Source of the DNA: a virus
Length of the DNA: 20,897 nucleotides
Virus record (IMG/VR): IMGVR_UViG_3300043420_000385
Span: 1 to 20,897 of that record
Reading direction: 5' to 3' (one strand)
Shown piece after piece: positions 7,301 through 20,897 of the stretch (position 1 is the stretch's first letter; every line of letters starts with the position of its first letter). A program made the translations under genes and the position numbers. The notes below the pieces were generated by a model. That model had not been told where the DNA came from. It made no database searches and saw only the letters and a program-made list of their open reading frames with translations.

Positions 7301-9210
7301 TGAAACTCGGCACCAATCGGCTGCAAGGCCTTACCGATCTCCTCTTGCATCCTCGCCCAAGTTGTAGCAAGGCGGCGGCCGGCTGCTTCGCTGCTCTGCG
7401 ACATCAGCACCACGTTCTTGCCGTAATCACTACTGGCAAGACGCACAAACTTCATGAAGTCGTTGAGCGAAACTTGTCCCTTTTCCAGCATCTTGTCCAG
7501 TTCTGCTGGAGTTTTGCCAATAGATTCGGCAAATAGGGTGAACGCACCTGGGAGACGTTCACCTATCTGGCCCCGGAGTTCTTCGGCAGAAACTTTTCCT
7601 TTAGAAAATATCTGGGCGGTAGCAAGTAGAGCGCCGTCTAGGTCAGCCAGTGTTCCACCTGTACCCAGGATGGCGCTGGAGATACCCATAAACGCTTCCT
7701 GTGCTGCGTTTACGTTTCCTCCGGCACCGATGACAGACGCCGCCAATCTGGTGAAGTTCCTAGTGACCTGCTCCTGCGGGATTGCAAGTGCCCGGGATGT
7801 TTGGTCAATGAAGGCGAGGCTCTGCTGATAGGCGGCGCTGTCCTCAACCACACCGCTCAAGGCGCGGCGTTGTTGGTTGATGGCGGCGGCGTACTCGGCA
7901 GCAGCACCAGCCGCTTGGCGTAAGCCCGCAACCTGGGCGCCGATCGCCGCACCAGCGAACGCACCACCAACACCACCTAGGGCGCCACCCGCAACGCCAC
8001 CTAGGAAGCCCTCAGGGCCGCCGAAGATGCCACCGGAAATGGCAGCACCCGCGATCTGGGTGAGGCCTTGGGCGCCTAGGCCGCGTTTCTTTGTAACCTT
8101 GTCCTGCTTGAGGGCCAGACTATCAAGCCGCGTCTCTAGCGTCTTGATATTCCTGGTGGCATTCTCAAAGGCAGCAGAAGACGGGTCTACCGCTCTGCGC
8201 AGAGCAACCCAGGCATTACGCTGTTCATCCAACGATTGGATGGTGCTATCGGAAGTGCGTTTTACGTCGCGCAGACGCTTGAGTGCTTCTTCATACGGCG
8301 TAGATACAGTTTTTGTACTAGATTTGCCTACCTGCTCCTGCGTAATTTTAAGAGAGTTAAGACGCTGCTGTAGTGCAGCCACTCGCCGACTAGCTGTATC
8401 AAAAGCAGCTGAGTTCGGGTCTACCACCTCGCGCAACATAGACCAAGCATTCAACTGCTCCCTCAGGGAAGCGATAGTATTGTCTGAACGCTTAACAACC
8501 TCACCCAAGGCCGCCCTAGCTTTCTCATAGGGAGAGACATCTACTTGTACTTCGGGAACTTTCTTCTGGGTTATAGAGAGGCTGTCAAGACGCTCTTGTA
8601 GTGTTTTTACATTGGTTGTAGCCTGCCTAAAGGCATCCGATGAGGGATCAACAACGCTCCTAAGTCGTTGCCATGCACTCCGCTGTTCCTCTAAGGAACT
8701 AATCGTGGTATTGGAACGCGCATTTACCTCATTGATGGCAGCAATCGCCTCGTCGTAGGCTGTTGGTGCTACAACACCTGTGGCACCCGCTGGTACATAA
8801 GCCTCCGTGGGCTTATTCAAGTACCTAGAACGCATCGCTGCATTAGCAGCGTTTTGCTGGGCTGTAGCTGCCTTTGTGGCCCTGTCGGCAACTGTCTCGT
8901 ACTTAACAGATAGCTGCGCTAATTCGCTATTGACACTGCCAATGTCTTGCGTTAGCTGCTTGTACAAAGGCGAGTGAAGGGTTGCCTGCTCTCTGACCCC
9001 CTTAAGTGCAGCTTCTAGTCCCTTTAACGTCGCTTCGCTGCTCTGCGCTCTTTTGGCATAGCTAAGTATCCCCTCCCTGGCTTCCGCTAGAACGGCATCA
9101 CTCTGATCAACCGTAGAGGCGAGGCCTTTAAACGCACTCTTTAACTTGGCAAGCTCCTCATAGCCCTTAATACCCAGGGTGACCAGGATGTCTTGTACCT
9201 GCTTAGCCAC
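4369..9210 (-). CDS. Tape measure protein with internal lysozyme-like domain
   Basis: A 1613-residue protein starting at GTG 9210, eight bases inside the chaperone reading frame. It sets tail length and is ejected with the DNA. Visible layout: helical N-terminus; three tandem repeats of about 77 residues (about 152-372); a Gly/Ala-rich membrane-like stretch (about 380-440); the classic tape-measure core with SAEELRGQIGERLPGAF near residue 541; hydrophobic segments at about 660-760; long charged coiled coils (about 795-1010); a lysozyme/transglycosylase-like domain (about 1038-1177) with candidate catalytic Glu1063 in GFETGG; more coiled coil; a membrane-like stretch (about 1365-1430); and the common C-terminal motif KGG...GLMGEAGPEAILPL near 1500. 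Using the usual rule of about 0.15 nm per residue, a tail of roughly 200-250 nm is implied, less if the enzyme domain is folded. The call is very secure. Confidence 0.96.
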   Translation of the reverse strand: MAKQVQDILVTLGIKGYEELAKLKSAFKGLASTVDQSDAVLAEAREGILSYAKRAQSSEATLKGLEAALKGVREQATLHSPLYKQLTQDIGSVNSELAQLSVKYETVADRATKAATAQQNAANAAMRSRYLNKPTEAYVPAGATGVVAPTAYDEAIAAINEVNARSNTTISSLEEQRSAWQRLRSVVDPSSDAFRQATTNVKTLQERLDSLSITQKKVPEVQVDVSPYEKARAALGEVVKRSDNTIASLREQLNAWSMLREVVDPNSAAFDTASRRVAALQQRLNSLKITQEQVGKSSTKTVSTPYEEALKRLRDVKRTSDSTIQSLDEQRNAWVALRRAVDPSSAAFENATRNIKTLETRLDSLALKQDKVTKKRGLGAQGLTQIAGAAISGGIFGGPEGFLGGVAGGALGGVGGAFAGAAIGAQVAGLRQAAGAAAEYAAAINQQRRALSGVVEDSAAYQQSLAFIDQTSRALAIPQEQVTRNFTRLAASVIGAGGNVNAAQEAFMGISSAILGTGGTLADLDGALLATAQIFSKGKVSAEELRGQIGERLPGAFTLFAESIGKTPAELDKMLEKGQVSLNDFMKFVRLASSDYGKNVVLMSQSSEAAGRRLATTWARMQEEIGKALQPIGAEFQDTLSRFLSDNETQLVELAKGLAGAAKAFLDLAISVGPALVGLGKLALAFGASVLATKAYIALRGPFVTALLAMRGAMGTMTAQAAAAQTRLLALGASVKALAASLAVPIVLTIAIQGIAQVISNLERIKRLKQEVTDLPSVEDFISSRYKGSAVGPQDRQQLIRDLEETNEAVAKQQIVAGKAQTKLQELSAEAKKLFSTKKPKADELLVARAEADKELAALNNLIERRKELGRLMGTVGTGSPAKPFEFPTDPTKDKDEASRKARDEAARLAAEQQRLDEALMRQGIELDDLRFRNKMDLVRREYELRRELEERERNLWASTFRGRGAESARALTDLLQQVEAGKARSNELEAELRLRRQALISAQRMERVTSQGISGAPAGTSGLAGGRGAAPAGGGSQTRALVAAAQKLGINPLDLATIIGFETGGTYNPSQWGGAGGRHMGLIQFGPSERKAYGAYQGQSFEEQITGPVVRYFQERFRGVGMSTQGADLLTLYRTVLGGNPKASLGGRDAFGTSPQSGVAAMGPHRTTALNRFFGGDVANVPAATGAPGGATQIRRDVAAEGSVAQAKENVAQQEKLIAIERKNAEDATKLSVAEFIQKTTKSLDDQTYALEQNYDAYQARLQVEETGMRSEFVEAEMEKLRLYQEQGDALAPLLEAQKIINDPEVLETINTAIQKINDSYSRQTEIVNNLAKAQTERGVALRTYLGQQRRELAKMVDIEQIVIQGAQAIEQAMSTAMSAAVTSVITGVGSIRQALSDAFEAIGQAFIQMAMQIIAKQLVMITLQTILKALGGATGGGANMADVGKYADTATNVTLPSIPAPSAKGNAFTPQGPVERYAKGGIVNAPTLFRYAKGGTFAPGLMGEAGPEAILPLRRTPDGRLGVTQVRSPQDADRMREMMGRSPAQQQAPMLNLKFETTTINGVEYVSREQLEVAMAETRKRASKEGAERGMSMTLDKMRNSPRTRAQVGMR
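5680..6099 (-). other. Lysozyme-like (lytic transglycosylase) domain inside the tape measure
   Basis: Residues about 1038-1177 of the tape measure. The order is typical of lysozyme-like folds: a helix AAAQKLGINPLDLATIIGFETGG carrying Glu1063, a short loop, then GLIQFGPSERKAYG (the Gly-hydrophobic-Gln-Phe turn of this fold), and later helices ending NRFFGG. It is flanked by Gly/Ala/Pro-rich linkers, so it looks like an inserted module. Tape measure enzymes of this type open the peptidoglycan layer during DNA entry. Activity is inferred, not shown. Confidence 0.75.
8095..8757 (-). repeat. Three tandem ~77-residue repeats in the tape measure N-terminal part
   Basis: Three copies, at about residues 152-220, 228-294 and 306-372. 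Each runs: Tyr-Asp/Glu-x-Ala start, a helix, S(D/N)(N/S)TI.SL.EQ, AW..LR..VDP(S/N)S.AF, then a helix with L..RL(D/N)SL.(I/L).Q. Conservation is at the protein level; the DNA has drifted, so the duplication is not recent. The AW...VDP.S.AF core is nearly constant in all three. Confidence 0.9.
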
Positions 9211-9885
9211 CCCGTTTGCCCCCCTGGTCCTTGTGAAGCTCGTTCAGCGCTGCGATCTCCATGACTTGGATGTCGTCCAGCATGGTGCGGCGATCCTCAA
9301 CATCATAGAGGTCAAATAGTCCGCCGGAACACACCAAAACTTCGTAGCGCAGACCCGTGTAGCCCGCCATAGAGACGGTCCACTGGGTCTGCATACGAAG
9401 GAACATTGACACCGAGTCCCAGTTCTCGTCCCACACCACGCAATGCTCCTCCTGGGGCTCGGAAGAGACGGGGATGGAGATGCCGAACGCTTTGGCGTCG
9501 TCCTGGGATTTGTCCTCGATCTTCTTGCTGCCAGACGCCCAGTACCTGGCAACCTCCTTTAGTTTCCCTGGCGGGCTCCCTCAAACGTCTCCGTGTAGGC
9601 CTTGAGGACACCCCGGATCCAGTACGGGTCGTCCACGAACTCCTTCAAGGTGGCCAAGGAGAAGGGGATGGGCTGGCCGTCTTCGTCGGTGATGCCTTCC
9701 CAGTCCACCATGATGGTCTGGAGCAGCTGCGCGTCGCCCTTTTCGCTCAGCTTGCTGAACTCCTTACGTCCCACACGCTTGAATACTGCGTCGAACGAGG
9801 AGGAGTCAAAGGTGCCGCCATCACTGGGCTCCTCGATGGTGACAGGCCATTTGAAGGTTTTGACCTTCTTGCGGACAAACGCCAT
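9203..9885 (-). CDS. Tail assembly chaperone fusion made by -1 frameshift (gpGT-like)
   Basis: The product read from ATG 9885 to base 9562, then shifted back one base at G_GGA_AAC and read from 9562 to the TAA at 9203-9205: 108 plus 119 residues, 227 in all. The downstream part has no good start of its own (only a GTG at 9439) and is open back through the shift site to a TGA at 9581-9583. Its C-terminal 75 residues, with WDENWDSV, MQTQW, GLRYEVL and a final helix containing MEIAALNE, match the pattern of the DUF1799 phage proteins found after tail chaperones. By analogy with lambda, the short product coats the tape measure and the fused T part recruits the tail tube protein. The two products are needed in a fixed ratio. 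Confidence 0.88.
9529..9551 (-). promoter_or_regulatory. Candidate frameshift-stimulating hairpin
   Basis: A six-base-pair stem TGCCAG/CTGGCA (9546-9551 with 9529-9534) with an 11-base loop, starting 10 bases after the slippery heptamer. The distance is a little longer than the usual 5-9 bases and the stem is short, so it may be helped by other pairing. Between heptamer and stem lies AAAGGAGGT (9552-9560), a perfect match to the anti-Shine-Dalgarno sequence of 16S rRNA. Confidence 0.45.
9559..9885 (-). CDS. Tail assembly chaperone, short form (gpG-like)
   Basis: The 108-residue zero-frame product. The chosen start is ATG 9885 (MAFVRKKVKTFKWPVTIEEP). A TTG ten codons upstream is less likely because it lies only six bases from the terminator stem. 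The protein has a basic N-terminal strand followed by a helical, acidic second half, the usual form of phage tail assembly chaperones of the FKWPV type. It sits between the tail tube gene and the tape measure, exactly where lambda G is. The stop TAA follows the slippery site directly, a common arrangement that favours slippage. A weak ribosome site (CCCCAGGTAC) precedes the ATG. Confidence 0.9.
   Translation of the reverse strand: MAFVRKKVKTFKWPVTIEEPSDGGTFDSSSFDAVFKRVGRKEFSKLSEKGDAQLLQTIMVDWEGITDEDGQPIPFSLATLKEFVDDPYWIRGVLKAYTETFEGARQGN
9562..9568 (-). promoter_or_regulatory. -1 ribosomal frameshift slippery heptamer
   Basis: On the minus strand the bases read G_GGA_AAC in the zero frame (codons CAG GGA AAC TAA), a canonical X_XXY_YYZ heptamer close to the G_GGA_AAG of lambda G/T. 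Re-pairing gives GGG AAA, and the new frame continues CTA AAG GAG for 119 residues. The zero-frame stop TAA is the very next codon. Confidence 0.92.
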
Positions 9886-9920
9886 GTACCTGGGGATAGC
9901 TTGGTTGTACAGCAAAATAT

Positions 9921-9944
9921 AGCCCAGGTTTTTACACCTGGGCT
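9921..9944 (-). terminator. Hairpin terminator after the tail tube gene
   Basis: The perfect nine-base stem AGCCCAGGT/ACCTGGGCT with a six-base loop is followed on the minus strand by ATATTTTG, a short and impure U tract. It lies 25 bases past the tail tube stop and about 36 bases before the chaperone ATG. A partial terminator is likely, since the downstream tail genes must still be transcribed and I see no strong promoter after it. Confidence 0.7.
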
Positions 9945-9968
9945 TTGTACTACAACCTACCCCTGGGT

Positions 9969-10904: not shown

Positions 10905-11079
10905 CTGTGGTTACCTCGGGAATCTCTGGGGTGGTGCGGACTTCTTCCGCAGGGTACGTGCGAAAAACCAGCGTCCGAAGGCCGGTCTCAGGATCCAGGA
11001 GGTAGGAACCACCCTGCCCCTGGTACACGTCTTCAACAATAGGTGCAGGGGGTTGATACAAAGAACGACGGCGACTCAT
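10867..11079 (-). CDS. Small conserved-context protein, function unknown
   Basis: 70 residues from ATG 11079, overlapping the tail terminator gene by ATGA and the tail tube gene by 38 bases. The N-terminus is basic (MSRRRSLYQPPAPIVEDVYQ), the middle has a short strand pair SYLLDPETGLRTLVFRTYP, and the C-terminus is acidic and Pro/Thr-rich, likely disordered. Both overlaps and the constrained reading frame argue that it is real. Its place between tail terminator and tail tube genes suggests a role at the head-proximal end of the tail, but no family is recognised. Confidence 0.65.
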   Translation of the reverse strand: MSRRRSLYQPPAPIVEDVYQGQGGSYLLDPETGLRTLVFRTYPAEEVRTTPEIPEVTTDAAPNTEASHPD

Positions 11080-11507
11080 GGCGTGGCATCCAGGGCAGCG
11101 ACTTGGGTGCGGTACTTGATGTCGTACTCGCAGGAGATCAACCCGGCAGGCTGATCGGCTTCAATCAGGTTAAACGTCGTCTGTGATGGCTGAACATCAA
11201 TCGCCAAACCACCCAGGGTGAGGTCAGCCATTAGCTTGCTATGTAGTGACACCATCGTGGGGTCAGCCAGGCTGTCGGGCACCGTTCCACGCACGATGAT
11301 GGTCACACGCACCCGCAACAGCGCATCCAAGGTGGGCAGGCTCGTCTGCTGCGTGTAGGTGATGCTGAGGGGCTCGATCACCAGGGCGGGGGTTTCGCTG
11401 CGCCCCATCGCCTCAACCCTGGAGCGCCAGATACGTGTACTTACGCCTGCTGTACCCGCCAGGGTGGTGGCAATCTGGGCCAGGATTTGTTCGTTCTTAC
11501 TTGCCAC
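11076..11507 (-). CDS. Tail terminator / minor tail protein U-like
   Basis: 143 residues, GTG start at 11507. It has the order of gpU-type tail terminators: an N-terminal helix with ILAQIATTLAG, a turn with VSTRIWRSR, then strands ALVIEPLSI, an LRVRVTIIVRG strand, a helix HSKLMADLTLGG, and the ending LISCEYDIKYRT. This protein caps the finished tail tube and makes the joining surface for the head. The position just before the tube gene agrees. No normal Shine-Dalgarno site is seen; instead an inverted repeat ends exactly at the start codon, which may control translation. Confidence 0.85.
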   Translation of the reverse strand: MASKNEQILAQIATTLAGTAGVSTRIWRSRVEAMGRSETPALVIEPLSITYTQQTSLPTLDALLRVRVTIIVRGTVPDSLADPTMVSLHSKLMADLTLGGLAIDVQPSQTTFNLIEADQPAGLISCEYDIKYRTQVAALDATP

Positions 11508-11676: not shown

Positions 11677-12519
11677 CTACAATGCCTCCAAGGCGGTTAC
11701 ACGCTGCTCTAAGTCTGTAAGACGCGAGGAAACTTGCCACCGATTGTTAGCGTCACTCCACGTCAACACATCGCCGTCTTGGGTGCTGCCGTTTGCTTGG
11801 ACATCGTGTAGATCGGCAAGACGCCGCCCCGTGTCCCACCGCACCATGAGGATGCCCTGGGTGGTGCTAGACACCACCGCAGCCACGGGGAGCTTCAGGT
11901 TTGGCGCTTGGGGTTCAGTTGCGGTTAGACCACCTGGGACCGCAGGATTGCACCACAGGATTGCACCTTCGCTGTACGTCCTGGTGTCGATGCCGCGTAT
12001 CTTGCCAAACGTGGTCACAAACCCATCAGCGCCTGCGGCGATGGCCTTGGTGGTGATGCCAAAGAACACATAACCTGGGTACGTGCCATCAGCAACCATG
12101 GGGGCAACCAGGAGGCGCCCACTATTGCCCAAGGTGCCGGCGAACATCACGGCGGTGCCGATAGGGATGGTGCTGGCGGTGCTGTTGCGGCATAGGGATA
12201 GCTGCTCCTGACCTACCTGCAGGGTAATGCCATTCCCTTTACCCAGGTCCAGGGTTTGCTCATCAGCGTTCCAGGTAAGCTGCCCCTGGTCTGCAGTAAG
12301 GCCTGCATCCAAGGTGAAGCCCAGGCTGTTCAGCGTCCTTGGGTCGGAGTTGAGGTGGCCGTAGGGAAGGGCGGACCAGGCTGTTACGCCATCGCCCACC
12401 TTGATGCGCTTGGTGTCGGTCTCGTACCCAGGCTCATTTGCCCCTAGGACTGGGTTGGCTAGGGTCCACTGAGTCTGGGTGCCAGCGCGAAAGTGGATGC
12501 GCTGCGGCGTCGTGCTCAT
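11677..12519 (-). CDS. Fibre protein with Mtd-like N-terminus and C-terminal coiled coil
   Basis: 280 residues from ATG 12519 (ATGA overlap with the joining-protein gene; strong site GGAGG six bases upstream). A start 12 codons further upstream is less likely. Domains: residues about 4-55 carry IHFRAGTQTQWTLANPVL...PGYETDTKRIKVGDG..WS.LPY, the N-terminal domain known from phage tail fibres such as the Bordetella major tropism determinant; a short repeat region; a beta domain at about 110-225 with GDS-like loops and FGKIRGIDTRTYSEGAILW, a module common in phage adhesins; the tether motif LADLHDVQ...QDGDVLTW..ANNRWQV at about 232-264; and a last coiled coil. No variable C-type lectin end or template repeat for diversity generation is seen. 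Confidence 0.8.
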   Translation of the reverse strand: MSTTPQRIHFRAGTQTQWTLANPVLGANEPGYETDTKRIKVGDGVTAWSALPYGHLNSDPRTLNSLGFTLDAGLTADQGQLTWNADEQTLDLGKGNGITLQVGQEQLSLCRNSTASTIPIGTAVMFAGTLGNSGRLLVAPMVADGTYPGYVFFGITTKAIAAGADGFVTTFGKIRGIDTRTYSEGAILWCNPAVPGGLTATEPQAPNLKLPVAAVVSSTTQGILMVRWDTGRRLADLHDVQANGSTQDGDVLTWSDANNRWQVSSRLTDLEQRVTALEAL

Positions 12520-12947
12520 GGCGTACCTCCATCCACCTGGGGCGTATTCACCCAATCGGTGCCGTCGTTGATCAGCAGATCACCCTGGGCCTGGTTGGCG
12601 ATGGATACGTCGGTGAGGTCTTGCAGCTCAAACTCCCTGGGATTGCGGCCCACGACGGTGCCGTCTGGCGGGATACGCATCAGCATCAGATCGCAAAATG
12701 CCCCATCATCTAGGCGCATCACTTCGCGCACGGTGTAGTTGACGCCATCAACGGCCACGGTATCCCCGTAAACCAAGCCGCCAAACAGCGCCGTTTTGCA
12801 GGTGAGCTTGTAGTCGGTGGTCAGTACCACGCCGTCAGCCACAATCTCACTGGGCATATCCATGATTCCCAAATCAGAAACGGCGCCCGCTGTTACCTGA
12901 ACGCCGAAGTCTGCAAGGAATAGATCCAGGTCTTCGGTGAATGCCAT
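12516..12947 (-). CDS. gpFII-like head-tail joining protein with fibre-type C-terminal extension
   Basis: 143 residues from ATG 12947. Residues 1-95 fit the lambda gpFII / Phage_attach type: F..DLDLFLADFGV at the start, GI.D.PSEIV, a strand YKLTC, GD.VAVDGVNYTVREVMRLDDGAFCDLML. This fold sits on the head connector and meets the tail terminator. Residues about 107-143 are unusual: ELQDLTDVSIANQAQGDLL..DGTDWVN, a repeat motif normally found in tail fibres. The same type of motif ends the next gene. This suggests a fusion that lets the connector ring bind or present a fibre. Its start lacks a good ribosome site. Confidence 0.7.
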   Translation of the reverse strand: MAFTEDLDLFLADFGVQVTAGAVSDLGIMDMPSEIVADGVVLTTDYKLTCKTALFGGLVYGDTVAVDGVNYTVREVMRLDDGAFCDLMLMRIPPDGTVVGRNPREFELQDLTDVSIANQAQGDLLINDGTDWVNTPQVDGGTP

Positions 12948-12986
12948 GTACCCATGCTAGGGCACATGGCAGCACCTATCTGGGGA

Positions 12987-13955
12987 TTAGATCAGCGTAT
13001 CCACCGCAGCTAGAACCTGGGTGCCGACAAGGTTGCCACTGCTGCCGCCAAAGGCGAGGAATGCCAAGGATTCGCTGAGGTGGGTGGTCTCAACATCTAG
13101 GGACTGTTCCTCCTGCACCAGGGCGCTGAAGCCGCTGGCGGTGACACCAGTGATGCGGCTGTTGGCGGTATCGGCGCCGTTGAAGGATGCCACCTTGGTG
13201 AATAGGGTGGGTGCCTTGGTGAAGGACTGCGCAAAGCCCAGGTTGTTGTTGGTCTGGTTCACCGTCTCTGGGGTGAGGCCACCTTGGATCAGGGTGTCGC
13301 CCATGGTGGTGGCATTGCCGCTGAATGCGAGGTAGCCAATGCTTTCGTAGACGTGGGTTCCGGTGTTCTTGGCCTCCTCCTCTTGCATGGTGACGCGGAA
13401 ACCACTGCCGGTGATGGCATCGGTGCGGGTCGTCACCCAGTCGGCACCATTGGAGGTCTGCACCTGGGTCATGACCGAGGTGTTGGCGCCCATGTTGGGC
13501 AGTGCCACGGTGTCGAAGCCGGCGCTGCTTAGGCGGTTGGTCTGGATGTTACCGGCGGTGAACACCATCCCGCCGACGTTCCAAGTACCGGCCTCGACCA
13601 CCATGTAGCTCAGGTTTTCAAAGACGTGGAGCCCGTCAAGGTAGGCGGGTTCCTGTAGCGAGAACTCAAAGCTCTGGGCGCCGACATTACGCAAGCGCAC
13701 GGCGACGGGCTGGCCGCCGTTGAAGGTGGGATCCGAGAAGATCACCACGGGGTTGACGTAGGCGTTCTGGAGCGTGACGCGCTGCCAGTTGTGGTTGCCG
13801 GCAATGGTGCCGTATTCGCCAAAGACTGAGGCAGGGGTGGGGGTGGGTTCCGGGTCGGGCGTCGGGGTGGGGGTGCGGTCGCGATCCCGGTCGTAGCGGT
13901 CGTAGTCGCGGTCGCGGCTGGCAAGGGTGTCCACAGGGGTAAAGCTACGTGCCAT
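12987..13955 (-). CDS. Lectin-like fibre protein with three tandem repeats on a charged/Pro-Thr stalk
   Basis: 322 residues. Residues about 13-27 alternate Arg and Asp with Tyr (RDRDYDRYDRDRDR), then residues 28-41 are Pro-Thr/Asp repeats, an extended stalk. Three repeats of about 85-90 residues follow, at about 44-123, 125-213 and 218-304. Each has a strand ending in Gln-Glu (SLQEP, TMQEEE, LVQEEQ), a turn with His, and then a hydrophobic ES(I/L)(G/A)(Y/F)LAF or FENLSYMVVEAG strand. This is the pattern of H-type-lectin-like beta-sandwich repeats that bind sugars. The middle and last copies are most alike. It probably forms a trimeric adhesin; attachment to head, neck or tail cannot be told. 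A weak AAGGA site lies 13 bases before the ATG. Confidence 0.78.
   Translation of the reverse strand: MARSFTPVDTLASRDRDYDRYDRDRDRTPTPTPDPEPTPTPASVFGEYGTIAGNHNWQRVTLQNAYVNPVVIFSDPTFNGGQPVAVRLRNVGAQSFEFSLQEPAYLDGLHVFENLSYMVVEAGTWNVGGMVFTAGNIQTNRLSSAGFDTVALPNMGANTSVMTQVQTSNGADWVTTRTDAITGSGFRVTMQEEEAKNTGTHVYESIGYLAFSGNATTMGDTLIQGGLTPETVNQTNNNLGFAQSFTKAPTLFTKVASFNGADTANSRITGVTASGFSALVQEEQSLDVETTHLSESLAFLAFGGSSGNLVGTQVLAAVDTLI
13833..13919 (-). repeat. Low-complexity repeat coding for Arg-Asp and Pro-Thr stalk
   Basis: Short imperfect repeats of CGGTCG-type units (13875-13919) code for alternating Arg/Asp with Tyr. Next to them lie GGTGGG-type units (13833-13874) coding for Pro-Thr/Asp/Glu. Such tracts can change length by slippage and so alter stalk length. 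Confidence 0.75.
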
Positions 13956-14024
13956 GAGAGTTTAGGATTCCTTAAGGATCACCGCCTGGGGTGGCGGCGT
14001 TGCGGAACCATAGCACAGGGCTGC
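13956..14024 (-). other. Intergenic 69-base spacer with palindromes
   Basis: Contains the perfect ten-base palindrome TCCTTAAGGA (13969-13978) and a stem CCGCC/GGCGG (13982-13986 with 13993-13997). Neither is followed by a U tract, so a terminator is not supported. The palindrome overlaps the AAGGA likely used as ribosome site by the lectin gene. No clear promoter is visible. Confidence 0.35.
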
Positions 14025-15818
14025 TTAGCCAGTGATCGCCTGGAGGGTGGCGTTAGGCAGGCGACGGTCGAAGTAGGTGAGGCGGCTGATGGTGCCGTTA
14101 AGCTCCTTGATGGCAGTGCTGTTTAATCCGCCAATATCTAGTTTGTTGACGGTTGGCAGTACAACAGTGTCACCTTGAGATGGGACAGCTCCATTATATG
14201 ATACTGCTGCCGAAGAGCTTGAATACGCGCCTGCGGCGACTCGTCTTAAAGTTGAAACAACTGGGATCAAAGAAACAGAGCTAGCGCCACTTTCCCGAAC
14301 CAATAAGTTGCCCAGTGTTGCTGTTAAGAATCCAAGCTCAATGCGATTGTTATTAGTTCCATCTGAGACTGCGGCTATCGTTTGGAAGTCAGAAGCTGGA
14401 ACAACTGCTAAGTTAGTGGCGTCCGCAAACACCGTCCCCTCATCCTGCCGGTACCAGCTGGAGAAGTTAGCCCCAGTGATCGAGGCCACGTCAGCACTGC
14501 GGGTGACCGCTGCGGTGGTGGTGGGGATGTAGCTTGTTGGGAAGGCTCCGGCTTCGATCTGGGCGCCCCAGCATTCAAAGCCCTCGCCAGGATCTCCATA
14601 TATTGCTACAGCCAGACTGCCACCAGCACCGCTATTTGCGGTCAAGCTAATTCTGTACCAGCCGTCTGGAAACTCTTCAATGGAAGACGCAATTATGTTG
14701 GCATTAGTAGGTGTTAACACTCCATTGAGAAATTGAGAGTAATATCCAAAAATATTTGCCCGTACTGGTACAGTTGCCGAGTTATTCTTTAACCACACGC
14801 TAAACGTATGATCAGTTGAAGCACTTACGCTAACAAAGTCATTGGGACCGTAGAAAACACCAGAAGGTACTACTGTTGTCGCTGTAAATGTTCCATCTGG
14901 AGCGGTTGCGTTGTTAAGAGTCAATACGCCGCTGGCTGAATTATTTATTCCCCAAATGCCAGCGAGTCCTATTTGCTGGCTATTCGGTAGCAGATTAGTC
15001 CTCTGCTCCTCCACCAACAACCCCAGGCTCTCACCAGTCTCCGGGTCATGATCAAACCGTGGAGCGCCGGAGATGCTAGATGTGGTCTTGACGTATTCGC
15101 CTACGGTGGAGGATTGTTCGAGCTGAGCGCCCCAGAGGTAGATGCCGCTGGTGCCGTCTCCTGTGTATGTTCTGGTGCTAGAGGCTGTGCCTGTACATAG
15201 CTGGAGATATGCACTGGTTGTCGCTCCCGCCGAAGTGCCAGTAACGCTACACCGATACCACCCATTACCAACATTCTGAATAGATGCCGTGCCGCTTGTT
15301 ACTTCACCTGGCGTTCCGTTAGACAGGTTAAACACTGCGCGGCCACCAAGCAATACGCTGGCGTTTATTTCAAGGTTGCGCGCTCCGTTTGCCCTTTTTA
15401 CATATACAGAGAATGTTGCGTCGCCTGCAGAGGCCGTTAGGTTTTGGGAAATACGATGCAACGCCGATGCAGTCGTGTCTTCTGTAATCAAATCAGCGGT
15501 TACTGTTCCGTCTGGGGCTATTGTTGCATTAACGGTAGAACCACTACCAAAAGCTAATATGTTTTCTCGGAGCCACGTCGTCGAAAAATCCTCCGACTGC
15601 AGCAGCAGATTCACCACCGAGTTCTTAATCAGCCCATCGCTGCCCACATACGTCCCGATACCATTACCACCCCTGGTGAAGTCAATTAGGTTCTGGCCGC
15701 TGACGTTATCGTTCAGGGTTTTGCTAGAGGCAAAGCGTAGGTCCAGGGTTGGCGTACCAGCCTGGGAGTAGAGGAGATCGTCGCCCGTCCCTGGGGCACC
15801 AGTGATTTTCCAGGTCAT
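14025..15818 (-). CDS. Large spike protein: two carbohydrate-binding-like modules plus LamG-like end
   Basis: 597 residues, ATG overlapping the previous stop by one base (TAATG), ribosome site AGGAG nine bases upstream. Layout: short N-terminal attachment part with LDLRFASSKTL and FTRGGNGIGTYVGSDGLIK (about 20-68); module 1 (about 71-245: LLLQSEDF..TTWLR, APDGTVTADL, FSVYVK, VGNGWYRCSVT, GIYLWGAQLE); a connecting strip GAPRFDHDPETGESLGLLVEEQR (about 251-273); module 2 (about 275-440, with DGWYRISLTANSG, CWGAQIEAG, SYIPTTTAAVTR); and a LamG/concanavalin-like domain (about 455-597). These modules occur in phage spike proteins thought to bind surface glycans. Module 1 appears to break the usual N-terminal strip, which in the neighbour gene runs directly from YVGSDG to PRFDH. 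The DNA of the modules is visibly richer in A and T than the joining strips. Confidence 0.85.
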   Translation of the reverse strand: MTWKITGAPGTGDDLLYSQAGTPTLDLRFASSKTLNDNVSGQNLIDFTRGGNGIGTYVGSDGLIKNSVVNLLLQSEDFSTTWLRENILAFGSGSTVNATIAPDGTVTADLITEDTTASALHRISQNLTASAGDATFSVYVKRANGARNLEINASVLLGGRAVFNLSNGTPGEVTSGTASIQNVGNGWYRCSVTGTSAGATTSAYLQLCTGTASSTRTYTGDGTSGIYLWGAQLEQSSTVGEYVKTTSSISGAPRFDHDPETGESLGLLVEEQRTNLLPNSQQIGLAGIWGINNSASGVLTLNNATAPDGTFTATTVVPSGVFYGPNDFVSVSASTDHTFSVWLKNNSATVPVRANIFGYYSQFLNGVLTPTNANIIASSIEEFPDGWYRISLTANSGAGGSLAVAIYGDPGEGFECWGAQIEAGAFPTSYIPTTTAAVTRSADVASITGANFSSWYRQDEGTVFADATNLAVVPASDFQTIAAVSDGTNNNRIELGFLTATLGNLLVRESGASSVSLIPVVSTLRRVAAGAYSSSSAAVSYNGAVPSQGDTVVLPTVNKLDIGGLNSTAIKELNGTISRLTYFDRRLPNATLQAITG

Positions 15819-16837
15819 TACATTGCACTCCTAATAGCGGTGATCTGAGCGGCACTAAGGGCAGCGGGGAAGACCATCACCCGCTCGGCGGTGTAGCCCT
15901 CCTGCAGGACGATGTCGCCACCGGATTCAATGGCACTCCCCTCTGGTTTGGCGACCATGGTGTAGGTGCCGGTGAGGACTCCGGTGCCGTCGATCACGGC
16001 AGAATCAGCGGTGCGCGTGACGGCCGTAGTGGTCGTGGGGATGTAGGTGCTGGGGGTGCCTACTTCGAGCTGGGCGCCCCAGAGATAAATACCGGAGGTG
16101 CCGTCGCCTGTGTAAATAGAGGTACCAGCCTTGGCAAGCATAACAACAGCATTTGTTAAAGTGTCCGCCGTTGTAAGTGTATTTACGCATCTATACCAGC
16201 CATTGCCGACTGGTGTGATGCTGCCTTCTGTGCCCACTCCCTCGATAAGAACATCTCCCGTGGAAAGATCAAAAGACACATTCTTCTGTCCTCCCCCTGC
16301 GTCAAGTCTCAAGAATAACTGGCTTCTTTCCGCCGCCTTTGCGTACACTGAAAATGAGTACAGAGAGGAAGAAAGTCCAAGGCTTCCTAGGTAGATAATG
16401 TGGTTGGCGTTGATTGTTGCATCTTCTACCACTTTATCTGCGGTCAGAGTGCCATCAGGTGCAACCGTTGCGTTGGCAACTGACCCAGACCCAAACGGAA
16501 GCGTTCTTACTCTAATCCAATTTACATTATCAAACTCCTCACTCCTGAGCAGCAAATTCTCCCTGCTCCCCTCCACCAGCAACCCTTTACTAATCCTTGT
16601 TACCGGGCCATGATCAAACCGTGGCACGTTGGTGGTCGCCCGTTGGATGTACCCATCCGAGCCCACGAAGGTGCCCTGGTTACCACCAGTGAAGGTCAAC
16701 TTATCCGTAAGACTTACCGCCTCTGTCTCGCGTTTATCGCGGGCAAACCTATAGTCAAGCGTCGGTGCAACACCAGCGATGGCCTGGGGCCGCAGGCCGT
16801 TATCCAGCGTCAGCCCCGCCCCGATCTTAAGGCCCAT
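15818..16837 (-). CDS. Spike protein with one carbohydrate-binding-like module
   Basis: 339 residues, ATG overlapping the previous stop (TGATG) and preceded by GGAGGTGATC, a very strong ribosome site. Layout: N-terminal strip with APTLDYRFARDKR, LTFTGGNQGTFVGSDGYI, VPRFDHGPVTRISKGLLVEGS (about 24-91); one module (about 94-275: LLLRSEEFDN..W, VAPDGTLTADKVVEDA, FSVYAKA, VGNGWYRCVN, GIYLWGAQLEVG, STYIPTTTTAVTR); and a short C-terminus ending in the helix LSAAQITAIRSAM. It is a paralogue of the next gene and probably forms part of the same adhesive apparatus. No enzyme site is visible, so it likely binds and does not cut glycans. Confidence 0.82.
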   Translation of the reverse strand: MGLKIGAGLTLDNGLRPQAIAGVAPTLDYRFARDKRETEAVSLTDKLTFTGGNQGTFVGSDGYIQRATTNVPRFDHGPVTRISKGLLVEGSRENLLLRSEEFDNVNWIRVRTLPFGSGSVANATVAPDGTLTADKVVEDATINANHIIYLGSLGLSSSLYSFSVYAKAAERSQLFLRLDAGGGQKNVSFDLSTGDVLIEGVGTEGSITPVGNGWYRCVNTLTTADTLTNAVVMLAKAGTSIYTGDGTSGIYLWGAQLEVGTPSTYIPTTTTAVTRTADSAVIDGTGVLTGTYTMVAKPEGSAIESGGDIVLQEGYTAERVMVFPAALSAAQITAIRSAM

Positions 16838-17178
16838 CAGATCACCTCCGGCTCGGGTTCAGTCGCAGGCTCCTCGCCTGCTGGATCCTCGACTGGTGCA
16901 TCAGGCTCCGGTTCCGGCTCAGGCAGAACGATCGCATCAGTACCATCATACGCCGGGTTGGGTGATCCATCGGCCAGGAACTTCGGCTCCAAGGCACCCA
17001 CGTAATACGGGCCGACCTTGTAGGTCTCGCATCGTTGCCGCAGCGTTTCGATCACGCTGGCAGCGAAATACTCCTCGGCGGTGGCGGCAGCCGTTGCGCC
17101 AGTGCTGGAAACAATCAAGAACTCCGCCTGCAATGCAGGCAGCAGTTCATTGGGCACTGAGATGGTGAAGTCAGCCAT
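16837..17178 (-). CDS. Small structural-region protein with acidic Pro-Glu tail
   Basis: 113 residues from ATG 17178. A compact helical N-terminal half (MADFTISVPNELLPALQAEF..., then TAEEYFAASVIETLRQRCETY) is followed by a strand-poor segment with KFLADGSPNPAYDG and an extreme Pro/Glu/Asp-rich tail from about residue 85 to the end. The tail is likely disordered. No family is recognised. The overlap with the strongly translated spike gene suggests a partner or chaperone for the spike, which is only inference from position. Confidence 0.65.
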   Translation of the reverse strand: MADFTISVPNELLPALQAEFLIVSSTGATAAATAEEYFAASVIETLRQRCETYKVGPYYVGALEPKFLADGSPNPAYDGTDAIVLPEPEPEPDAPVEDPAGEEPATEPEPEVI

Positions 17179-17180
17179 GG

Positions 17181-17927
17181 TTAAGATGCGGTGGATTTGA
17201 GGACAGCAAAGCTGATCACCACAGCTTCGGATAGGCTGCCTGTAGTGATGTTACGCACGGTGATCAAACAACTACCAGCACCAGGCCGGCAGTCGAACAC
17301 GTAAGCGCCAGCGGTGCCGCCTGAGCTGTGGTTGACGATCAATAGATCCGTAGCGTCGATCCGATCGTTCGTCAACGTGAAACTCACCGCCGCACCAGCC
17401 GCCAGCGTGGCGTTATTCATCGTGATCTGACCGGCGGGCTTATTCAGCGTCACGCCAGTGCTTTTGTTCGTCGCCTGGGTGACGGTGCCGCCTGCACCTG
17501 CGGCATACCCAAACCGCAGCGTGGTGCGCAGGCCATCGGTGGTGTTAAATGTCAGGCTGCTGCTGGCCGCCAGCGCACCACCGGAGTTGTAAGCCACCTG
17601 ACCACTGGCGCCAGGGATCAGGGCCGCCGTACCCGAGGCATCAGGGAAGTAGATGGCCCTGTTAGCCGTTGGCGTGACGAGTTGGAGCGTCGTAGTGTAC
17701 GTGCCACCGTCGTCTAAGTTCAGGTCGCCGACTACATCAAGCTCATTATCGACGTAGTTCCACTTCAGCGCTGACGTGGAGCCGAATGCGCCGGCAAGGT
17801 TGTATTGAATCTCGTAGTCATTGCCCACAGGTTGCCCTGTACCGCCCTGCACGCCAGGCACGGCAACTGCTACCTGTACATCAGACTGCGGGACAAGCGA
17901 TAGTTGAACGACACCACTGCTGGTCAT
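17181..17927 (-). CDS. Fibre-like structural protein with conserved beta C-terminal domain
   Basis: 248 residues from ATG 17927, two bases after the upstream stop. The N-terminal part has a fibre-type strip (GNDYEIQYNLAGAFGSTSAL) followed by a segment LNLDDGGTYTTTLQLVTPTA and IYFPDASGTAALIPG that is repeated in the gene at 19136-19816. The C-terminal domain (about residues 143-248: GAGGTVTQATNKSTGVTLN, ITMNNATLAAGAAVSFTLTN, NITTGSLSEAVVISFAVLK) is a beta domain often seen at the end of phage fibre proteins, probably the trimerising tip. Cys213 and Cys220 could form a disulphide. It belongs to the fibre block. Confidence 0.75.
   Translation of the reverse strand: MTSSGVVQLSLVPQSDVQVAVAVPGVQGGTGQPVGNDYEIQYNLAGAFGSTSALKWNYVDNELDVVGDLNLDDGGTYTTTLQLVTPTANRAIYFPDASGTAALIPGASGQVAYNSGGALAASSSLTFNTTDGLRTTLRFGYAAGAGGTVTQATNKSTGVTLNKPAGQITMNNATLAAGAAVSFTLTNDRIDATDLLIVNHSSGGTAGAYVFDCRPGAGSCLITVRNITTGSLSEAVVISFAVLKSTAS
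17586..17726 (-). repeat. Duplicated fibre segment, copy 1
   Basis: Codes for DLNLDDGGTYTTTLQLVTPT through GASGQVAYN. The partner copy is at 19499-19639. The two copies are alike in protein and partly in DNA (for example the shared stretch around CCGTCGTCTA). Confidence 0.8.
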
Positions 17928-17929
17928 AG

Positions 17930-18517
17930 TCAGTTCCGCGAGTAGGTACGCTCAACCGTGGCGATGCCCTTAAGGAAATAATACCGGCTGCCGCCGCTGG
18001 ACGTAAAACTTACGTCGTAGCCGTAGCGTCCGGGGTTCATTGCTGCAGATGTCGCAGGCGGCACCGCCAGGGACACAACACCATTGGTGGCATCAGACAG
18101 CGTGCAGGTCATCGTTGCTTCCTGCACATCGGTGAGGAGGCCGTAGATGTCTGCATCGACGGTGTAGCCGGTCAGGTCCATCGGTTGCGCAACGTAGAAC
18201 GTGCCCGTTGCGGTGCCGCTTAGCGCAATCTCGCTACCACCCAAGGTGGCCGACACCTTGAAAGCATCAGTGGTGAGGCCCGATGCGATGACGTAGTAAA
18301 CGGTGTTCAGCGCCAGCCCGCAAGGCACCTCGGTGTAGGTGCCTGTGAACACCACCTTGTCGCCGGCAACCAAACCGTGACAGTCGCAGGTAAAGGTGCC
18401 CACACCAGCCGCCACCGTGATGGCGCCTAGGGTTTGGCGATTCTCCGTGACACGCACCGACGTAGACCACGTTGCGTTTTGCAGGATCGTGATGTCGTGG
18501 CTGGCGGGGTAGATCAT
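17930..18517 (-). CDS. Beta-sandwich structural protein with an inserted domain
   Basis: 195 residues, ATG overlapping the upstream stop (ATGA), ribosome site GAGGT close by. The outer parts (residues 1-28, SHDITILQNATWSTSVRVTEN, and about 110-195, QPMDLTGYTVDADIYG through YGYDVSFTSSGG and FLKGIATVER) look like one beta-sandwich protein of the type common in phage neck/tail regions. Residues about 29-109 (TFTCDCHGLVAGDKVVFTGT, NTVYYVIASGLTTDAFKVSA, IALSGTATGT) are a separate small module, seen widely in phage structural proteins, that interrupts it. Function is unknown; it is part of the fibre block. Confidence 0.7.
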   Translation of the reverse strand: MIYPASHDITILQNATWSTSVRVTENRQTLGAITVAAGVGTFTCDCHGLVAGDKVVFTGTYTEVPCGLALNTVYYVIASGLTTDAFKVSATLGGSEIALSGTATGTFYVAQPMDLTGYTVDADIYGLLTDVQEATMTCTLSDATNGVVSLAVPPATSAAMNPGRYGYDVSFTSSGGSRYYFLKGIATVERTYSRN

Positions 18518-19125
18518 GCTGCCACCTCTGCCGTGGGTCGAGAATAGAATAGGATCTCCCCAGGACGGGCGGCATCTAGCAGTCCTAGGTTCACCAGCAG
18601 CTCCAGGCCGGCGATAGCGCGGGGATCATCCAAGGCCACCAGGGGGGAGGCGAACAGTTCATCCAAAAGGGCGCGGACCTGGGCGGCTTGGGCGTTATGA
18701 GCCTCTGCTGCGTCAATTTCAGCCTGATTGGTGGTTGCGATTGCAGCCATGTAGCTATCGACCACAGCTTGATACATCGCCGTCTCTTCTGCCGTTGGTT
18801 CTGTCATCAAGGCATAGGCGGCCACCATATCGTCATACGCCTGCTGTTCTTCAGCGGTTGAAACACCAGGGATGGGGTCTGGTACGGATACGGTGTCCTG
18901 GGCGGCGGCGAGGATATTGCCGTACTCCTGGGGTGTGAAGCGTCCCACAAAGGCTGCGCTGGTGATGATGCCATAGCTATTGGCATCGGCAAAACGGTGA
19001 CCGTCCTGGGTGAGAAGGAAGGTGCAGTAGTCCTTGGGGGACATCTTGGCAGTATTAGAAGCAAACACCAGCCCGTCAATAACACGAGGGGCGGTGATAA
19101 CAATGGTCAGGGAATCAAGCGCCAT
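18514..19125 (-). CDS. Helical structural-region protein, function unknown
   Basis: 203 residues from ATG 19125, with GAGG eight bases upstream. The N-terminus is beta-like (LDSLTIVITAPRVIDGLVF), followed by a conserved-looking strip with ITSAAFVGRFTPQEYGNILA, a long Ala/Glu-rich helical middle (about 85-150) and a compact C-terminal helix pair with DDPRAIAGLELLVNLGLLDA and ARPGEILFYS. The ends look like those of small proteins linked to fibre genes in other phages, but I cannot name the family. The ATGA overlap with the next gene ties it to the block. Confidence 0.65.
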   Translation of the reverse strand: MALDSLTIVITAPRVIDGLVFASNTAKMSPKDYCTFLLTQDGHRFADANSYGIITSAAFVGRFTPQEYGNILAAAQDTVSVPDPIPGVSTAEEQQAYDDMVAAYALMTEPTAEETAMYQAVVDSYMAAIATTNQAEIDAAEAHNAQAAQVRALLDELFASPLVALDDPRAIAGLELLVNLGLLDAARPGEILFYSRPTAEVAA

Positions 19126-19135
19126 GGGTCAATCC

Positions 19136-19816
19136 TCAAATGGTGATGCGGAGTTCGCCAGTGGCGGTTTTATAAACGTCACCAGCAACTAAGCCACCGG
19201 AGATGGCCGCTGCATTGTCTGCGTAAGTAGGAAGACCTGGTGCCTTGATTAAGCCTCCTTTGCCGACGTAGAAACGTCGTGTCGCACCAGCGATGAAGTC
19301 AAGAAAAGCACTGCCTGTTGCACTTGCGCTATCCGTTATGGTGAGCTTCAGCCCCGTGAATGTCACCCCAGCGTTATTCCACGTCTGGCTGAGGTTGATG
19401 ACAGGCGCATCTGCCGTGACGGTCTTGCCGCCGACAGTCAATGCACCAGCAGTGGCGTTATACGTGAGGCCGCTATCGCCAGCCTGGACGCCTGCGTTGT
19501 TATAAGTCAGCTGCCCTGAGCTGCCCGCTACTAGGGCAACGGTGCCCGTAGCGTCGGGGAAGCTGATCGTACGGTTAGCAGTGGGCGTCACCAACTGGAG
19601 CAGGGTGGTGTAAGTACCGCCGTCGTCTAGGTTGATGTCACCGCCGACACCCAGCTCCTTGGCGGTGTCGTCCCAGGTCAGATCGGATGAGCCGGCAAAG
19701 CTGCCGCTATCGTTGAACTGCACTTGGGTGTCGGAACCGCCAGGCGCGGAGCCTGCACCGCCAGCGCCTACTTCATCTAGGCCGGCGCCGAGAAGAGGGT
19801 TGAACTTATATGCCAT
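19136..19816 (-). CDS. Fibre-like structural protein
   Basis: 226 residues, ATG overlapping the upstream stop (TGATG). After a Gly/Ala-rich start it has the fibre strip GGSDTQVQFNDSGSFAGSSDL, then the segment INLDDGGTYTTLLQLVTPTA..ISFPDATGTVALVAG shared with the gene at 17181-17927, then a beta region with WNNAGVTFTGLKLTITDSAS, and the C-terminal motif LPTYADNAAAISGGLVAGDV followed by YKTATGELRITI. That ending is very common at the tip of phage fibre proteins, where it helps trimerisation. It is probably a fibre or whisker subunit. Confidence 0.78.
   Translation of the reverse strand: MAYKFNPLLGAGLDEVGAGGAGSAPGGSDTQVQFNDSGSFAGSSDLTWDDTAKELGVGGDINLDDGGTYTTLLQLVTPTANRTISFPDATGTVALVAGSSGQLTYNNAGVQAGDSGLTYNATAGALTVGGKTVTADAPVINLSQTWNNAGVTFTGLKLTITDSASATGSAFLDFIAGATRRFYVGKGGLIKAPGLPTYADNAAAISGGLVAGDVYKTATGELRITI
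19499..19639 (-). repeat. Duplicated fibre segment, copy 2
   Basis: Codes for DINLDDGGTYTTLLQLVTPT through GSSGQLTYN. It pairs with 17586-17726. Confidence 0.8.
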
Positions 19817-20010
19817 CAGCCTAGGCTCCAGTACACGGAGGTCACGTTGTTACTGCCGTCGTAAGTCAGATTTAAAGTGCCGACGACATCACCGCTGGCC
19901 CCACCGCGTTTGTACACGACCTGGGTGAGGTTGGACCCGGTGTACGTGAACGCTGCATAATCCGACGTGGAGGGAGCAGCAAAGCCGCCGATATGTGGGG
20001 TGCCGCTCAT
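19816..20010 (-). CDS. Small fibre-block protein (64 residues)
   Basis: 64 residues from ATG 20010. The C-terminal half (TQVVYKRGGASGDVVGTLNL then TYDGSNNVTSVYWS) is a beta-hairpin module of a kind seen in phage structural proteins. It is the first gene after the head terminator. No ribosome site is visible before the ATG, so initiation may be weak. Function is unknown; it may be a small fibre or head-attachment piece. Confidence 0.65.
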   Translation of the reverse strand: MSGTPHIGGFAAPSTSDYAAFTYTGSNLTQVVYKRGGASGDVVGTLNLTYDGSNNVTSVYWSLG

Positions 20011-20037
20011 GACGCGAGCCCAGGCGTAGTTGCGATC

Positions 20038-20065
20038 ATTCTAAACCTGCGGGCAATGATGAAAA
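20038..20065 (-). promoter_or_regulatory. Candidate sigma-70-type promoter for the fibre block
   Basis: On the minus strand TTTTCA (-35, four of six consensus) and TAGAAT (-10, five of six) are separated by 16 bases. It lies just past the terminator stem and partly inside its U tract, and would give a leader of about 20 bases to the 64-residue gene. Judged by eye only. Confidence 0.3.
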
Positions 20066-20072
20066 CAAGAAA

Positions 20073-20092
20073 AGCCCAGGTTTCCCTGGGCT
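20073..20092 (-). terminator. Hairpin terminator after the decoration gene
   Basis: The perfect eight-base stem AGCCCAGG/CCTGGGCT is closed on the minus strand by a GAAA (GNRA-type) loop, and followed by TTTCTTGTTTT. It begins 24 bases past the stop of the decoration gene. It is stronger than the terminator at 9921-9944 and shares its stem sequence. Confidence 0.85.
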
Positions 20093-20115
20093 CTGCGCTT
20101 TTGTGCTTACGCCGC

Positions 20116-20526
20116 TCAGGCGTACTTCTTGGCAGCCACAGCGTTGATGCTGTAGGTGTGGGTCGAAGTTGAGGTGGTGGACACTGCCTTGATCCAACGC
20201 TTAGCAGCGCCCTTGGGGAAGACAAGGTACTGCTTAGAGGCGGAGGTGGAGACCTGGGCGAAGGCGACAGCGCCGGAGGCTTGCTCAACGCCGCCACGGC
20301 TGAAGACCGTGGTGACATCGCTGTAGCTGCCGCCCTCGGTATCGCTGGACTGCAGTTTCACATCCAGGGTGGAGGTGCCGCCGTTCTCGACATCAAGGAT
20401 GACGATCACATCGCCCTCGTACTCCTGCATGTCAACGGCGGTGCCGTCAAGGTCAGCGGTGCGGGCTGCGGTGGGGGCAAAAGCAAGGTGCGACAGCTTG
20501 CTCAGGCCCGTGGAAAGGATGGCCAT
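20116..20526 (-). CDS. Probable head decoration protein
   Basis: 136 residues from ATG 20526, with a strong ribosome site (AGGAG six bases upstream) fitting a high-copy product. The N-terminus is short and extended (MAILSTGLSKLSHLAF), then beta strands VIVILDVENGG, LDVKLQSSDTEGGSYSDVT, and a tail ending THTYSINAVAAKKYA. The STLDVKLQSSDT...GGSYSDV pattern is common in phage capsid-associated beta-sandwich proteins. The place just after the capsid gene and directly before a terminator fits a decoration protein on the capsid surface. A minor head protein is the main alternative. Confidence 0.7.
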   Translation of the reverse strand: MAILSTGLSKLSHLAFAPTAARTADLDGTAVDMQEYEGDVIVILDVENGGTSTLDVKLQSSDTEGGSYSDVTTVFSRGGVEQASGAVAFAQVSTSASKQYLVFPKGAAKRWIKAVSTTSTSTHTYSINAVAAKKYA

Positions 20527-20529
20527 GAT

Positions 20530-20751
20530 TTACTCCTGGGGGGAAGTGGGGGACTTGCTGCGCCGCGTGCGGGGAGCAGGCGCTTCCTGGGGGGCGGGCT
20601 CCTCGGGGGCAGGAGGCGCAGGCGCGTCTACCACCTTGGCTTTGCCCGTACCAACCAGGAGATTGGCATCGGCAACGTTGAGTTCAAGCAGGGAGCCCAC
20701 CGAGATGGACTCCCCGTTGATCATCACGTTGCGGAGGATTTCAACGTGCAT
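20530..20751 (-). CDS. Small head-region protein with Pro-rich tail
   Basis: 73 residues from ATG 20751, 11 bases after the capsid stop. Residues 1-42 form a small beta domain (ILRNVMINGESISVGSLLEL, NLLVGTGKAKVVD), followed by a Pro/Ala/Glu-rich linker and a basic Arg/Lys/Ser end (TRRSKSPTSPQE). Similar small proteins follow capsid genes in many phages, but the role is unknown. Confidence 0.7.
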   Translation of the reverse strand: MHVEILRNVMINGESISVGSLLELNVADANLLVGTGKAKVVDAPAPPAPEEPAPQEAPAPRTRRSKSPTSPQE

Positions 20752-20762
20752 GACTACTTAGA

Positions 20763-20897
20763 TCAGGTGCCGTAGCAGAGGGCAGCAGGCTGCTTCACTG
20801 CAACGTCCAGATCCTGGTGAGCGATCACGCGGACGGTGCCGGCGGTGGCGCCCGCATAGGGATCCACCATCAGATCCAGGCCACTCCACATGCCCAT
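20763..20897 (-). CDS. Major capsid protein, C-terminal fragment
   Basis: The last 44 residues plus TGA of a gene entering from the right edge. The visible part contains WSGLDLMVDPYAGATAGTVR, then a short strand VIAHQDLDVAV, ending KQPAALCYGT. The DPY..ATAGTVRV...QD.D.AV..P pattern is the usual C-terminus of an HK97-fold major capsid protein, which builds the icosahedral shell. The following small protein and probable decoration protein fit this assignment. Upstream parts are not in the window. Confidence 0.8.
   Translation of the reverse strand: MGMWSGLDLMVDPYAGATAGTVRVIAHQDLDVAVKQPAALCYGT

Follow-up and report, generated by a model that had tools for sequence, protein, structure and literature searches.

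Nine closely packed genes between the cement and stopper genes

The DNA analyzed here (the window) comes from an IMG/VR virus record and spans 20,897 bp, with every gene on the minus strand (Table 1). In the direction of transcription, the small gene g01 and the cement gene g02 are followed by a block of nine closely packed ORFs (g03 to g11, encoding 64, 226, 203, 195, 248, 113, 339, 597, and 322 amino acids, respectively), then by the stopper gene g12, the fiber gene g13, a small gene, and the tail terminator gene, 3' of which lie the tube, chaperone, tape measure, and tail-tip genes. A sequence-only reading had proposed an adhesin-rich block of nine genes between the capsid gene and the head-tail joining gene, bordered by genes for a decoration protein and a gpFII-like joining protein. 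The proposed limits (positions 12987 to 20010) matched the ORF positions exactly, and both borders were borne out: the g02 family profile matched the cementing protein of phage BPP-1 (3j4u_H; E = 4.2e-7), and g12 matched the Pfam family Phage_attach (PF05354; E = 5.6e-10; 40.1 bits versus a cutoff of 26). A PDB sequence search with g12 gave no useful match. The capsid gene, which that reading had also invoked, is not within the window, which ends at position 20897; the order major capsid protein gene, g01, cement gene was seen in relatives (L178, with g01 and g02 88 to 91% identical). The additional fiber gene g13 (Mtd_N) stands beyond the stopper gene, outside the block, and counterparts of 202 to 212 amino acids occupy its place in many relatives. 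An apparent stopper-fiber gene fusion in one contig (L159) proved to be a one-base frameshift. Base composition did not clearly set the block apart (GC content of 50 to 62% inside versus 56 to 62% around it), and megablast found no close phage DNA relatives.

Table 1. Features of the block and its flanks in the window
Feature	Position (strand)	Description	Match or support
g01	20530..20751 (-)	73 aa; small head-module gene, capsid-cement interval in relatives	phrog_2616; 88% identical copy in L178, MCP-cement interval
g02	20116..20526 (-)	Capsid cement (decoration) protein; left block border	Family profile versus PDB
Terminator-like hairpin 3' of g02	20071..20094 (-)	10-pair stem and U-rich tail	Fold z = -3.4
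g03	19816..20010 (-)	64 aa; small protein 5' of fiber gene in most cassettes	phrog_26903
g04	19136..19816 (-)	Fiber; N-terminal anchor MAYKFNPLLGAGLD	phrog_18251 and tail-fiber families
g05	18514..19125 (-)	203 aa; 3' of fiber gene g04	phrog_25252; 64% relative at same place in L088
g06	17930..18517 (-)	195 aa; fiber-anchor-like	phrog_1084 (E = 7e-18) and tail-fiber families
g07	17181..17927 (-)	Fiber; C-terminal lectin-like foot (about residues 140 to 248)	phrog_18251 (E = 8e-59)
g08	16837..17178 (-)	113 aa; hallmark gene, fiber-tagged lectin interval	Ribbon-helix-helix-like model
g09	15818..16837 (-)	Slot A adhesin; tag MGLKIGAGLTL	Homologue of RcGTA head-spike fiber
g10	14025..15818 (-)	Slot C adhesin; tag MTWKITG; repeated glycan-binding modules	
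g11	12987..13955 (-)	Lectin-like; last block gene	H_lectin (E = 0.006, below cutoff)
g12	12516..12947 (-)	Stopper/head closure, gpFII family	PF05354; phrog_82, PHROG head closure Hc1
g13	11677..12519 (-)	Second fiber; Mtd_N domain; stopper-terminator interval	PF18454 (E = 6.7e-12)
g15	11076..11507 (-)	Tail terminator	phrog_4204 (E = 9e-34)

Fiber and glycan-binding proteins encoded by the block

The earlier assignment of fibers to the block was upheld for g04 and g07, both of which matched phrog_18251 and tail-fiber families. The small gene g03 has counterparts at the same position in S-SRP02, S-CBS4, KBS-S-2A, S-CBS1, and S-LBS1, and the N-terminal anchor of g04 (MAYKFNPL) is common to S-CBS4 gp054, KBS-S-2A, and S-SRP02 p004. 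Taken together, g05 to g07 suggest a second, stacked fiber unit. The family matched by g06 has a further, weak match (E = 0.003) to the R4C-type adaptor of contig L126, in the Ig-like domain at its N terminus. The C-terminal domain of g07 was modeled with AF2 (pLDDT = 89.6) as a beta-sandwich like Helix agglutinin and the C-domains of pyocins and tailspikes (VIA Z of about 6.5). This domain was also considered as an RcGTA-type spike base; profile and fold searches gave no such match, and the model resembles a lectin foot. In the KBS-S-2A/MED4-184 lineage, the C-terminal domain of g07 is found as a stand-alone protein encoded directly 3' of the major capsid gene (L006, positions 19926 to 20291; L005, positions 19926 to 20291; L074, L081, and L082, near position 9950) and is a candidate capsid decoration protein. 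The g08 protein has 30 invariant columns across 17 sequences; in the AF2 model (pLDDT = 84), most Foldseek candidates realigned by VIA were ribbon-helix-helix proteins, but with Z < 5.

The two proteins called glycan-binding-like spikes, g09 and g10, indeed matched phrog_5939 and the head-spike fiber of the gene transfer agent RcGTA. By phmmer, residues 3 to 295 of g09 aligned with residues 4 to 287 of the 325 residues of Rcc01080 (6tb9_F3; E = 9.4e-39). Three stretches of g10 matched the same protein (E = 1.9e-24), with a weaker match to the baseplate proteins 8env gp45 and 9b45 gp46. The domain that g09 and g10 have in common with the head spike (about residues 50 to 260) occurs also in baseplate and tail-fiber proteins of many phages; hence, the homology of g09 gives good support for predicted glycan binding and only moderate support for a location on the head. 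The description of g11 as lectin-like drew only a subthreshold H-type lectin match, and a PDB sequence search gave no useful match; an 85% relative lies at the same place in L088.

The block is an optional insertion

Relative L095 is 97.0% identical to the window over 835 bp spanning g01, g02, and the hairpin, and no more than 15 bp beyond the hairpin its sequence joins a stopper gene that is 80.5% identical, with the block missing. Given this near-perfect empty site, the 7.2 kb as a whole is a feature that is either present or absent. Among the 61 related contigs in which the cement and stopper genes were both measurable, the gap between them was 0 to 97 bp in 51 and 0.6 to 4.4 kb in 10. The hairpin 3' of g02, which L095 retains, looks like an intrinsic terminator, so that the insertion would fall where the transcription unit of the head genes gives way to that of the neck genes. 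The stopper protein of the window carries an extra C-terminal tail with a fiber-type motif; this tail is present in cassette-bearing relatives and absent (92 amino acids) in most empty-site relatives, a covariation for which linkage alone could be an alternative explanation.

Two other features of this region were observed. A 12-pair inverted repeat (minus strand, window positions 12940 to 12990; fold z = -3.4) lies over the start codon of g12 and is absent from L095; translational control is possible. In the close relative L093 (positions 6272 to 9959), the site 3' of the stopper gene holds extra genes encoding 151, 86, 819, 64, and 96 amino acids, which are absent from the window.

Cultured relatives and a retroelement at the same site

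The cultured relatives of the window phage, a phage of aquatic cyanobacteria, are the cyanosiphoviruses S-CBS1, S-CBS3, and S-LBS1 (49 to 63% identity in the stopper and 41 to 59% in the tube protein). Their gene order is terminase, adaptor, portal, capsid, cement, site 1, stopper, site 2, terminator, and tube. At site 1, where the block lies in the window, S-CBS1 and S-CBS3 carry a small g03-like gene and a gene whose product has the annotation major tropism determinant (Mtd) and in S-CBS1 matches Pfam mtd_2nd (E = 5.5e-24); S-LBS1 carries a fiber gene at site 2. Both S-CBS1 and S-CBS3 have a separate fiber gene at the tail tip. The Mtd locus of S-CBS1 and S-CBS3 and the fiber genes of S-LBS1, S-H1, and KBS-S-2A resemble the window block in having the same g03 and MA[YI]KFNP anchor and in lying between the capsid/cement (or adaptor) gene and the stopper or terminator gene. 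They comprise fewer genes, however, and the C-terminal part of their fibers is an Mtd-like lectin or another fiber domain, whereas the window has stacked, tagged lectins.

Contig L126, a relative of S-CBS1 and S-CBS3 as judged by its stopper and site-2 fiber, holds at site 1 (positions 6914 to 9756) a complete diversity-generating retroelement (DGR) with a reverse transcriptase and a 117-bp template/variable pair, in which all 19 differences fall on template adenines (19/19). The target of this DGR begins with a g04-type anchor; at this site, relatives have such anchors on Mtd-like as well as on DGR-diversified proteins. Because the DGR of L126 is aimed at an anchored protein, the site-1 locus is likely to have a role in tropism. 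The Mtd of phage BPP-1 is a tail-fiber protein. The resemblance to the BPP-1 system lies in relatives, which at this site have Mtd-type domains and a true DGR; the window differs from it in that neither a reverse transcriptase nor a template/variable repeat pair was found there.

The cassette occurs in several phage types

Across phages, a core order was recognized, with gaps: g03, an anchored fiber (M.[YI].FNP[FL]), g08, and three slots for adhesins (slot A, slot B, and slot C). This order was found in the siphoviruses KBS-S-2A, S-CBS4, L088, L097, and the window phage and in the podovirus S-SRP02; the genes of the window that fit it are g03, g04, g08, g09 (slot A), and g10 (slot C). With g08 as the hallmark, the cassette was found in 95 contigs (64 nonredundant), and 40 of the nonredundant contigs could be placed; no g08 was found in bacterial genome contigs. 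The cassette lay among head-neck genes (5' of the stopper gene, in the stopper-terminator interval, or among portal and capsid genes) in 21 of the 40 and beside tail-fiber or lysis genes in the other 19, among them S-CBS4 and S-SRP02. Head-neck insertion was seen in at least three different, unrelated backbones: the S-CBS1 type, the KBS/S-H1 type, and a T7-like podovirus (contig L019/L232), in which the cassette is in the portal-capsid interval. Some phages with the cassette have neither head nor neck proteins in common with the window phage; to work there, the cassette would have to supply an adaptor of its own or rely on a docking site of a general kind. Together with the empty sites, these results make it probable that the block is a host-recognition cassette that is optional and moves horizontally.

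Short tags keep their order while the domains behind them are exchanged

Sixty-six slot proteins entered the tag analysis; since the contigs are related, the counts given here are not independent events. In the 25 contigs with at least two slots (10 AC, 8 ABC, 5 AB, and 2 BC), slot A preceded slot B and slot B preceded slot C without exception. Seven C-terminal families were distinguished, and each of the three largest, one of which is a laminin-G/ConA lectin (Pfam Laminin_G_3 in L089), was found behind all three tags. The domain family of g09 and g10 was found behind tags A and C. Thus, the order of the short N-terminal tags is constant, and what changes is the sugar-binding domain attached to each. 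Of 42 distinct slot N termini, 11 showed an alternating hydrophobic pattern of five points (L3, I5, A7, L9, and L11 in g09), compared to 3.1% of other ORFs and to a mean of 0.5 (maximum of 4) in 1,000 shuffles; in the slot C tag, this pattern is incomplete. In the literature searched (open papers only), no description of a tag-and-slot cassette was found.

Possible place of the cassette proteins on the virion

The sequence-only reading had taken gene order as a guide to virion position and had proposed head fibers or neck whiskers, with movement of the block around the genomes of related phages as evidence to the contrary. Evidence of this kind was found in part. With 19 of 40 placeable cassettes at the tail-fiber end, genome place alone cannot give virion position, and that part of the argument does not hold. 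From the sequence comparisons, we would give the cassette proteins of the window phage about an even chance of being on the head or neck and a smaller one of being on the tail, the rest falling to a place elsewhere or to proteins not incorporated into the virion.

Head spikes or neck whiskers, which would hold the particle on glycans before the tail engages, have precedents. The RcGTA head fiber docks through residues 2 to 10 (IALGLGLGL) on a jellyroll base, a pentamer seated on the capsid (PMC7296036), and the head spikes bind the capsule (PMC7296036; PMC10218006). The near end-to-end homology between g09 and this fiber includes the N-terminal docking region, where both have alternating hydrophobic residues, and a glycan-binding role is expected for g09 as well. 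RcGTA (GhsA Rcc01079 and GhsB Rcc01080; 6tb9), however, has one fiber, whereas the window encodes several tagged proteins in a cassette with predicted fiber stems. The second precedent is cyanophage A-1(L), whose five neck fibers (gp80 to gp82) are likewise multiprotein fibers with a distal carbohydrate-binding module; A-1(L) differs in being a myophage with neck-fiber genes located away from the structural genes, and the host was not bound by this module (PMC10966104). Neither gp80, gp81, nor gp82 was among the matches listed when g07 and g09 to g12 were compared with PDB sequences. The fiber-like motif in the stopper tail of cassette-bearing phages also favors a head or neck place, although it may reflect mere linkage. 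Against such a place stands the portability of the cassette to phages with no head or neck proteins in common, which means that it cannot rely on the cement or stopper protein of the window. Moreover, a base protein, which in RcGTA is the jellyroll protein GhsA, encoded next to the fiber and fixed to capsid pentons, was not found by profile, fold, or window-protein sequence searches: no window protein matched by sequence the GhsA candidates, which were small genes 5' of GhsB-like genes in alphaproteobacteria, and the RcGTA base was not among the matches listed for the g07 C-domain model. On balance, the evidence for and against a head or neck place appears evenly poised. In Rhodobacter capsulatus SP108, three loci (L236, L237, and L238) hold relatives of the RcGTA head-spike fiber that are 79 to 83% identical in the matched parts.

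Alternatively, the proteins may attach to the tip or side of the tail, as common receptor-binding proteins do, with their genes out of place; the head/neck boundary would then be no more than a site that tolerates insertion and offers suitable late expression. The terminator-like hairpin, which marks a transcription boundary at the site, is consistent with this, as are the cassettes beside tail-fiber or lysis genes (in L202, directly 3' of an S-CBS1-type tail-tip fiber), the resemblance of the g07 foot to pyocin and tailspike C-domains, and the occurrence of the g09/g10 domain in baseplate proteins. Gene order can mislead, as in A-1(L), where the neck-fiber genes are far from other structural genes (PMC10966104). 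However, S-CBS1 and S-CBS3 already possess a separate tail-tip fiber, head-neck insertion has occurred in several unrelated backbones, including podovirus L019, and g09 is homologous over nearly its full length to a head-spike fiber. We consider a tail location a tentative alternative.

That some small unassigned proteins of the block are missing head-tail connectors, as had also been suggested, is highly improbable: although no gp10- or gpZ-like gene was recognized between the stopper and terminator genes, none of the block genes matched the HK97 gp10 or gpZ families, relatives have an adaptor gene 5' of the portal gene (L009 versus R4C adaptor 8gtd, E = 9.8e-10; L126 versus phrog_5774, E = 1.7e-57), the stopper and terminator are assigned, and the neck set of empty-site relatives is thus complete without any block gene, which refutes a general connector role.

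A possible adhesin platform

In the model that we propose, the cassette would have been inserted at the head/neck gene boundary, 3' of the cement gene and the terminator-like hairpin. The g04 and g07 proteins would form fiber stems, with g03 as the small protein encoded 5' of the first fiber and g08 as a putative small partner or assembly protein; g09, g10, and g11 would be the glycan-binding proteins. By analogy with the nine N-terminal residues of the RcGTA fiber, the tags may dock the adhesin tips onto a shared base, and the cassette proteins, carried on the virion, would bind reversibly to cyanobacterial surface glycans. A more far-reaching version, which we regard as rather unlikely, is a plug-in adhesin platform of aquatic siphoviruses and podoviruses, in which short N-terminal tags resembling the five-point peptide of the RcGTA head fiber attach exchangeable lectins, each in its set slot, to one symmetric base. 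The virion would then bear several different glycan-binding arms on its head or neck, open to replacement or to diversification by a DGR, with the tail left unchanged.

Receptor-binding proteins are usually sought at the tail end of phage genomes. In several cyanosiphoviruses, a main host-recognition locus would instead lie between the head and neck genes, in a cassette that moves from one virion type to another. Should its proteins belong to the head or neck, these phages would have a second, rapidly exchangeable hold on cells or mucilage; should they belong to the tail, the common practice of predicting virion position from the order of genes breaks down in this case. The exchange of tags and domains offers a simple experimental route to the docking of such parts. 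Between slots B and C, a gene judged by eye to be HNH-endonuclease-like was seen in two contigs (L006, positions 24077 to 24745; L017, near position 3540) and is a possible motor of the spread of the cassette.
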